64,000 bases of DNA. Source: Sulfurimonas sp. HSL3-2. GTDB taxonomy: Bacteria; Campylobacterota; Campylobacteria; Campylobacterales; Sulfurimonadaceae. Shown piece by piece: positions 41,706 to 63,237 of this stretch (the first letter of the stretch is position 1; each line of letters begins with the position of its first letter). The stretch lies in NCBI RefSeq assembly GCF_039645965.1, contig NZ_CP147917.1, positions 1,860,001 through 1,924,000 of the forward strand, in the 5' to 3' direction. The notes under the pieces were generated by a model. It did not search any database. It worked only from the letters and a program-made list of their open reading frames with translations, and was not told the origin of the DNA. Made by a program: the position numbers and the translations under genes.

Positions 41706-42422
41706 CTATGCTTCTTCGCCCTCGGCCATATATAATATACGACCACAGTGTGGACATGTAACGATCTCTTCACCTTTGATAACGTCCGCATAAACTTTAT
41801 CGTTTACATGCATAAAACATCCCATACATGCTTGTTCTTTTACTGCAACTGCCGTAGTGTTTTTAGCCCAGCGACGAATCTTTTGATAAAAAGCAAGACC
41901 TTTTTGGTTCATCCCGCCTACAAGTTTCTCTTTTCTTGCAAAAACCTCATGACGAGCTTTTTCAATGCTTGCAAGTTTTTCATCAACATCAGCTTTGATC
42001 GCTGACAAGTTTGCGTCTAACTCATTTCTTGTCTGAGTCAACTCTTCAAGCTTCTCTTTTTTTGCTGTGATCAGTTTATCTAAACGTACGATCTCTTCAT
42101 TAGCAAAAGTGACCTGCTCTTTAGCGATCTCTTCTTCAAGTTGTAAAGATTTCATCTCACGTTCAGTTTTTATTTCTGCAGCTTTTTTCTTGTTTTCTTC
42201 AAGCTTTGCAGAAAGTTCAGCTAAATGAAGCTCGTTTTTGTGTTTTTTCAACTCTTCATTTTTCATCTCTTCTTCTAAAGATGAGATCTCATTGTCTAAA
42301 TTGTCTTTTGTTGCAAGAGCTGCTTCATACTTATAGTTAACCTCGTCTATCTGAGGTTCAAAAGCGTCTATCTCTTTGTCAACTTCTGAGAGGTCTATTA
42401 GTTGTTTTAAGTGTTTGTTCAT
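41706..42422 (-). CDS. Zinc-ribbon coiled-coil protein (HP0958/FlgZ-like)
   Basis: The 238-residue protein is almost all coiled coil (residues 10-165, rich in Glu, Lys and Leu). It ends with a four-Cys zinc ribbon, QACMGCFMHVNDKVY with VTCPHCGRILY. This matches Helicobacter HP0958, a chaperone of RpoN and a binder of flagellin mRNA that is needed for flagella. The neighbours, NIF3-like upstream and waaA downstream, are the same order I recall in Helicobacter. Naming by synteny and shape is strong; function here is inferred. Confidence 0.85.
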   Translation of the reverse strand: MNKHLKQLIDLSEVDKEIDAFEPQIDEVNYKYEAALATKDNLDNEISSLEEEMKNEELKKHKNELHLAELSAKLEENKKKAAEIKTEREMKSLQLEEEIAKEQVTFANEEIVRLDKLITAKKEKLEELTQTRNELDANLSAIKADVDEKLASIEKARHEVFARKEKLVGGMNQKGLAFYQKIRRWAKNTTAVAVKEQACMGCFMHVNDKVYADVIKGEEIVTCPHCGRILYMAEGEEA

Positions 42423-57423: not shown

Positions 57424-57429
57424 ATTGTA
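57424..57429 (-). promoter_or_regulatory. Extended -10 box of acpP
   Basis: TGTTACAAT on the minus strand is an extended -10 (TGnTACAAT), giving a leader of about 24-27 bases. The remainder of the 166-base gap to fabG shows no gene. Confidence 0.55.
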
Positions 57430-62351: not shown

Positions 62352-62651
62352 ATGAAAAAATTTACACTATCGGCTTTATTATTGGCTGCAATGATGTTTA
62401 TAGGTGCATCTTCACTAAATGCTAGTGATATGAAATGTGGTGCAGGAAAATGTGGTACTGCAATGAAATGTGGCGCTGCTATGTCAAAAGATATGAAAGT
62501 AAAAGGTTGTAAATGTAAAGACTGCAACCATCCAAACTGTGCGGCAAAACTAGATCCGACAAAAGCTTGTGACTGCCCTATGAAACCTATCAAAAAATGT
62601 AACGGTAAAAAAGCTGATATGCCTGCAAAAAAATGCGGTAACTCGAACTAA
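62352..62651 (+). CDS. Secreted Cys-rich peptide, putative metal binder
   Basis: The 99-residue preprotein has a signal peptide (MKKFTLSALLLAAMMFIGAS, cleavage near NAS). About 75 residues with 11 Cys and many Lys follow. The Cys occur in repeats: MKCGAGKCGTAMKCGAAM, then KGCKCKDCNHPNC and CDCPMK. GKCG units recall bufferin/HvfA-type copper-binding RiPP precursors, which carry EGKCG. However, no DUF692 or DUF2063 partner is next to it. A metallothionein-like periplasmic role is also possible. ATG 62352 is chosen for its AAAGGA site; an upstream ATG at 62316 is in frame but would spoil the signal peptide. Confidence 0.72.
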   Translation: MKKFTLSALLLAAMMFIGASSLNASDMKCGAGKCGTAMKCGAAMSKDMKVKGCKCKDCNHPNCAAKLDPTKACDCPMKPIKKCNGKKADMPAKKCGNSN

Positions 62652-62660
62652 TTTTTCTCT

Positions 62661-62693
62661 TTTACATGTAAGGGTATCTTCCTTACATGTAAA
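62661..62693. repeat. Inverted pair of TTACATGTAA motifs
   Basis: Arms TTTACATGTAAGG (62661-62673) and CCTTACATGTAAA (62681-62693) are exact reverse complements around a 7-base loop. They lie between the convergent Cys-rich and EF-hand genes. They may serve as a bidirectional terminator. Confidence 0.8.
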
Positions 62694-62724: not shown

Positions 62725-63171
62725 CTAAACCGATATACTTAAACTTCCGCCGTTTGTCTGTGACTGGCTGGTATTATATGCCGACAGTATATTTTTCATC
62801 AGTATCGATTGCAGACCGTTTTGCGCATGGCTGTTTGTTTTACAGTTAGCTTTAGGTGCCTGCGGGCTGCACTGCCCAAGTGCACTTAAAAGTTCATTGC
62901 CGTCTATCATGCCGTCTGAATTTTGATCCAGTCTGCTAAAGAGCTTGTCTGACTCGGCCATATCCTGCGATAACTGCATAGCAGCACTGCTGAACTCAAT
63001 TTTATCGATAGAGCCGTTTTTGTTAGTATCTAAAGTACTTAGGAGCTGATTGCTGATCTCCTTCATCTTAGAACTAAAATCATTTTTTGCTAGTGCGTTT
63101 ACTCCGCTTTGACTTTGTGTATTTAGCATAGATGCATAGTTTTTTGACACCATACTACTATTTACTATCAT
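62725..63171 (-). CDS. EF-hand calcium-binding protein
   Basis: The 148-residue protein has two canonical EF loops: DTNKNGSIDKIEF (about residues 48-60) and DQNSDGMIDGNEL (about 82-94), with all Ca ligands present. It lacks a signal peptide; the N-terminus is Ser/Asn-rich (MIVNSSMVSKNYASMLNTQS). The C-terminus is low-complexity (NTSQSQTNGGSLSISV). A sigma54-type promoter lies 50-66 bases upstream, so it may belong to the flagellar regulon and might be exported by the flagellar system; that is inference. AAGGAG lies before the ATG. Confidence 0.85.
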   Translation of the reverse strand: MIVNSSMVSKNYASMLNTQSQSGVNALAKNDFSSKMKEISNQLLSTLDTNKNGSIDKIEFSSAAMQLSQDMAESDKLFSRLDQNSDGMIDGNELLSALGQCSPQAPKANCKTNSHAQNGLQSILMKNILSAYNTSQSQTNGGSLSISV

Positions 63172-63221
63172 AGTTATCTCCTTTCTTCGATCTTACCTAG
63201 CTTGAATAGATATGGATGCTT

Positions 63222-63237
63222 AGCAAAAACAATTCCA
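63222..63237 (-). promoter_or_regulatory. Candidate sigma54 (RpoN) promoter of the EF-hand gene
   Basis: The minus strand reads TGGAAT-TGTTT-TTGCT. The invariant GG and GC are separated by exactly 10 bases, and it matches the GGAAY..TTGCT form used by flagellar genes in Campylobacter. Transcription would start near 63211, about 40 bases before the ATG. Confidence 0.65.

Follow-up and report, generated by a model that had tools for sequence, protein, structure and literature searches.

A two-EF-hand protein gene of Sulfurimonas sp. HSL3-2 behind a putative flagellar sigma54 promoter

A small gene of Sulfurimonas sp. HSL3-2 that encodes an EF-hand protein is preceded by a sequence, TGGAATTGTTTTTGCT, whose reading as a sigma54 (RpoN) promoter of the flagellar type is strongly supported, and the predicted Ca2+-binding product is very probably part of the flagellum programme. 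The strong support for the promoter reading comes from a genome scan, from 25 of 25 orthologs, from the absence of the site from paralogs and from the make-up of the sigma54 machinery. The features of the locus are given below in the coordinates of the window, which is the whole 64-kb stretch of DNA that was analyzed; positions called genome positions are those of the 2.24-Mb genome.

63237-63222, minus strand: putative sigma54 (RpoN) -24/-12 promoter, TGGAATTGTTTTTGCT; exact match to the flagellar motif, kept in orthologs
63211, minus strand: predicted transcription start, from the usual sigma54 spacing; leaves a 5' UTR of 40 nt
63182-63178, minus strand: Shine-Dalgarno sequence AGGAG, read from the sequence, between promoter and start codon
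62725-63171, minus strand: gene for the 148-aa EF-hand protein, from the ORF list, Pfam and orthologs; ATG start codon at 63171
62995..63030, minus strand: EF-hand loop 1, DTNKNGSIDKIE, aa 48-59, from Pfam
62893..62928, minus strand: EF-hand loop 2, DQNSDGMIDGNE, aa 82-93, from Pfam
62776..62817, minus strand: conserved C-terminal helix GLQSILMKNILSAY, aa 119-132, common to both paralog groups
62661..62693, plus strand: stem-loop of 14 pairs with two TTACATGTAA palindromes, found as a plus-strand terminator

An earlier note on this DNA had proposed a TGGAAT-N5-TTGCT element with exact GG-N10-GC spacing, and such an element is present at 63237-63222 on the minus strand. It fits the consensus TGGNAY-N5-TTGCW and is the only exact match to the motif within the window. 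Its -12 GC lies 51 bases from the start codon, and the predicted transcription start lies 12 bases past the C of that GC. Matches with two mismatches numbered 29 in the window against 37.6 expected, which is not above chance, and the signal therefore resides only in the full consensus. A second motif-like site at 57426, TGTAACATATTTTGCT, was rejected, as it is missing the GG and faces into genes on the opposite strand.

The earlier note had also suggested scanning the genome for similar promoters. The scan, which used exact patterns and not a weight matrix, returned 19 matches to TGGAAY-N5-TTGCW, 17 of them with TTGCT, versus 2 for the reversed control. Eight of the sites lie upstream of flgE, a flagellin gene, fliD, flgB, flgI, flgL, fliW and flgH, all eight identities being backed by a Pfam family or domain, with 30 to 93 bases between the -12 GC and the start codon. 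The classic variant TGGCAY-N5-TTGCW gave 3 matches versus 4 in the control and was set aside as carrying no signal. Flagellated relatives have 12 to 18 TGGAAY-type sites per genome, and six non-flagellated relatives have 0 to 4, which is about the level of their controls. Exact sites also occur at genome positions 195601, 329742, 1228452 and 2058422 (loci L005, L006, L013 and L018, respectively); they precede the genes of a 328-aa protein that matches nothing in Pfam or NCBIfam, a DnaJ-domain protein and a 112-aa protein with no Pfam match, and one of the four sites has no clear ORF behind it. The exact-spacing motif offers, in these three proteins, a ready list of unknown candidates for the flagellar regulon.

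The short form of the EF-hand gene is present in related genera, and removal of identical proteins left 25 distinct orthologs for comparison with 16 other homologs. A weight matrix built from the eight flagellar sites, with the site of the EF-hand gene left out, scored all 25 short-form orthologs at 11.6 to 26.2 and the other 16 homologs at 3.2 or below. The GG-N10-GC spacing and TTGCT are kept in every one of the 25, with both G residues of the GG, an A, TT, G, C and T invariant. Information per column over these loci is 1.40 bits in the promoter, 0.14 in the upstream flank and 0.30 in the downstream flank; the 25 orthologs are related sequences and not independent samples, and their flanks have diverged freely. 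The site is also kept in differing neighborhoods, lying beside rsmG in its own genus and, in one Sulfuricurvum, adjoining with its gene a phosphoenolpyruvate-synthase-type gene (named by eye, as were all genes lacking a Pfam or NCBIfam match). The likeness to flagellar RpoN promoters that had been proposed is borne out in that the same motif precedes the eight flagellar genes and persists across the orthologs.

Matches to the EF-hand family model were found in 51 of 200 family genomes, and FlhA in 173. Genomes with the sigma54-type gene carry flagellar genes as far as checked, including the two gene-carrying exceptions in the FlhA search, which have flagellins; as most relatives are flagellated anyway, this co-occurrence carries little statistical weight. 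The EF-hand gene is missing from many flagellated relatives and is therefore not needed for a flagellum. Matches in two non-flagellated genomes (G033 and G064) were considered as counter-examples and proved to belong to another family of EF-hand proteins, which has a signal peptide; a third non-flagellated match (G071) is from the same genus and of the same kind and place.

The genome has two rpoN genes, one (copy 1, genome position 1196346) adjoining an lptB-like gene and the other (copy 2, 1517801) lying by nif-type genes. It encodes exactly two strong sigma54 activators. The FlgR-like activator consists of REC and AAA+ domains with no helix-turn-helix and scores 628 bits to the FlgR model (cut-off 750), and the NifA-like activator has GAF, AAA+ and HTH_8 domains and falls just under the cut-off of its model. 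With only these two to choose from, FlgR is the likely activator, and it is highly probable that FlgR and RpoN copy 1 are used at the EF-hand promoter. H. pylori FlgR acts from solution without DNA binding (PMC3930126), and the protein here likewise lacks a DNA-binding domain, which fits the absence of a conserved upstream enhancer at the EF-hand gene. H. pylori and C. jejuni have the same regulator set (RpoN/FlgRS) for their flagellar sigma54 promoters, the difference being that the target here is an EF-hand protein; a literature search for EF-hand proteins in flagellar regulons found nothing relevant. The earlier note had drawn attention to an HP0958-like protein in the window. The homolog (HP0958/FlgZ, 41706-42422, minus strand) is real, with 178 bits to PDB 3na7 (HP0958), and in H. 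pylori the accumulation of RpoN depends on HP0958 (PMC3372290), but the gene lies 20 kb away, and as a general RpoN/flagellum factor it adds nothing specific on the EF-hand gene.

Could the motif be a chance match and not a promoter? Chance alone would give about 2 matches in the genome, and at least 3 of the 17 TTGCT sites fall within genes, but conservation of this site in 25 diverged orthologs with freely drifting flanks and different neighborhoods makes chance extremely improbable. Alternatively, the site may be a true sigma54 promoter under nitrogen control, read by RpoN copy 2 with the NifA-like protein as its activator. Both proteins are encoded, with the second rpoN placed by nif-type genes, yet TGGAAY-N5-TTGCT is the variant found in front of flagellar genes, and the motif was not seen in the upstream regions inspected on the nif side, nor was the nifH promoter itself identified. 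We therefore consider control through copy 2 very unlikely.

The product is a small two-EF-hand protein for which Ca2+ binding is predicted from the loops. Pfam EF-hand_1 (PF00036) matches two stretches with 34.8 bits (cut-off 25.4), and canonical residues occupy positions 1, 3, 5, 6, 8 and 12 of both loops, so the two Ca loops described earlier are indeed complete. Across the A1 group, D48, D56, K57, E59 and F60 are invariant in the region of loop 1, as are D82, N84, D86, G87 and E93 in loop 2. The absence of a hydrophobic signal peptide was likewise upheld, the maximum 15-residue Kyte-Doolittle mean being 0.46 versus 2.17 in a secreted neighbor. The N-terminus is disordered and rich in Ser, Thr, Asn and Gln, and the C-terminal helix is followed by a short tail with a hydrophobic end. 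An AlphaFold model of low confidence (mean pLDDT 53) places an EF-hand lobe at residues 27-100 and a helix at 117-133, with disordered ends.

The homologs fall into two groups that share the N-terminal start, the EF-hands, the C-terminal helix and the short tail. Members of the second group are longer, Pro-rich, three-EF-hand proteins, and unlike the EF-hand gene none of them has a sigma54 site. Of the 16 non-sigma54 homologs, 12 have GTTAC-N6-GTTAC in its stead, placed about 70 to 93 (mostly 81) bases before the start, an element found in 0 of the 25 sigma54-type genes. A pair of paralogs whose two promoter types exclude each other would be a clear case of rewiring into the flagellar regulon, and the simplest reading, we infer, is that the flagellar programme captured one paralog. 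On the tree the promoter label has to change twice, with one of the changes depending on a very long branch, and a short-form homolog of Sulfurospirillum with the GTTAC box groups beside the sigma54 set; a single origin of the promoter switch may still hold. A more far-reaching scenario, which we put forward tentatively and think somewhat unlikely as a whole, is that an ancestral Sec-less EF-hand family under GTTAC and two-component control was duplicated, that one copy was captured by flagellar RpoN in Sulfuricurvum/Sulfurimonadaceae, and that its product became a flagellum-exported, Ca2+-folded and Ca2+-gated component of the flagellum or cell surface. The paralog of the same genome (L031/L076, genome position 1573299 onward) has its GTTAC-N6-GTTAC box at about -81, and downstream of it come a regulator of the OmpR type and a kinase of the ArsS family. 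The kinase (351 bits, cut-off 250) has a sensor region that is Pro-rich, like the EF-hand protein just upstream, and the two could possibly be a sensor/ligand pair.

Whether the EF-hand protein leaves the cell is evenly balanced on the sequence evidence; if it does, the flagellar route would be the most likely one, with a type I system possible. In the sigma54-type group Cys makes up 0.14% (6 in 4199 residues, 2 of them in the Sulfurimonas sp. HSL3-2 member) versus 0.72% in the proteins of the window, and Ser, Thr, Asn and Gln make up 42% versus 19%; the corresponding values for FlgE, FliC, FliD and FlgL are 0% and 35%. This composition fits export, yet it is also found, together with the same termini, in the non-flagellar paralogs, so export is just the leading guess and the termini, being common to paralogs under another promoter, may have no role as a signal for flagellar export. 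Such a Ser/Thr/Asn/Gln-rich, Cys-poor make-up is also usual for small disordered proteins.

One alternative is that the protein, although a product of the flagellar regulon, remains cytoplasmic and, as a sensor or buffer of Ca2+, tunes the assembly of the flagellum or the output of the motor and chemotaxis. The two canonical loops and the lack of a Sec signal would suit this role, the conserved C-terminal helix might serve to bind a partner, and FliW, a cytoplasmic regulator, is under the same promoter class. We regard a cytoplasmic role as possible but doubtful, as the composition is like that of exported flagellar proteins and unlike that of the other window proteins, the linker and tails vary highly among orthologs and include His-rich runs, and the gene has no adjacent partner gene. 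It is also conceivable that only the timing of expression is flagellar and that another one-step system such as type I exports the protein by means of its C-terminal helix and hydrophobic-ending tail. The C-terminal element is common to the sigma54-driven and GTTAC-driven groups, and at one locus (L029 of genome G001) a TolC/NodT-like gene (named by eye) lies just upstream on the same strand. Against this, no ABC exporter was noticed directly beside the genes that were read and RTX repeats are absent, which makes such a route unlikely.

The explanation that we favor, and which is somewhat probable taken as a whole, is that the EF-hand gene belongs to the flagellar RpoN regulon as one of its middle-class genes. 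The flagellar export gate and basal body, while growing, would signal through FlgRS, and FlgR, lacking a DNA-binding domain, would activate from solution the RpoN encoded beside the lptB-like gene. The EF-hand gene would then be transcribed from 63211 together with hook, ring, rod and filament genes, even though it is not within a flagellar operon. Its product would leave the cell without the Sec route, probably via the flagellar type III export apparatus, and fold outside on taking up Ca2+; action at the surface of the cell or flagellum is weakly suggested. If so, the flagellar programme of this free-living branch within the Campylobacterota would include an uncharacterized Ca2+-binding protein.

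Proteins of this description have parallels. The C. jejuni flagellum secretes Fed and Cia proteins, and Fed-like proteins are non-structural, expressed with the flagellar programme and in some cases secreted by the flagellum, a likeness to the EF-hand protein that is one of description (PMC12445086). The composition of the EF-hand protein is compatible with flagellar secretion in the manner of this class, for which no recognized signal motif exists to score. We know of no EF-hand Fed. The nearest named family is XopAW (NCBIfam NF041410, type III secreted EF-hand proteins), which likewise has the EF-hand region and no signal peptide. The NF041410 model matches all 14 aligned members (best E 5.8e-27), but membership was rejected, the EF-hand protein scoring 49.4 bits and the paralog 93 against a cut-off of 120; unlike for XopAW, no injectisome is implied here.

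The EF-hand gene stands alone, with rsmG divergent on one side and a gene for a small Cys-rich secreted protein (62352-62651, plus strand) convergent on the other; the stem-loop at 62661..62693 lies between the convergent pair. The Cys-rich protein has repeated KCG and CKC motifs and no Pfam match, looks metal-binding, and its gene is kept beside the EF-hand gene within the same genus. The palindrome in the stem-loop, TTACATGTAA, occurs 12 times in the window versus 0.11 expected in shuffles, and 367 times genome-wide versus 3 for the reversed control.

11948, 15604, 21449, 24574, 33826, 40884, 47724, 48145, 61960, 62662, 62683, 63292: copies of TTACATGTAA in the window

Some copies stand in close pairs forming stem-loops, and others lie within genes. 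A Sulfurospirillum locus (L058) and L046/L051 likewise hold the palindrome at high density, and the Sulfuricurvum loci have no copy of it. It resembles a motif of the uptake-signal type or one interspersed across the whole chromosome; a literature search gave no relevant paper among the matches listed. About 2.5 kb beyond the EF-hand gene, at genome position 1925679-1925864 (L041, L043), lies a member of a second, unrelated EF-hand family, which has a signal peptide and a Met/Gly-rich tail and adjoins a cytochrome-c-peroxidase-like gene. This family also occurs in relatives (L116-L121), non-flagellated ones included.
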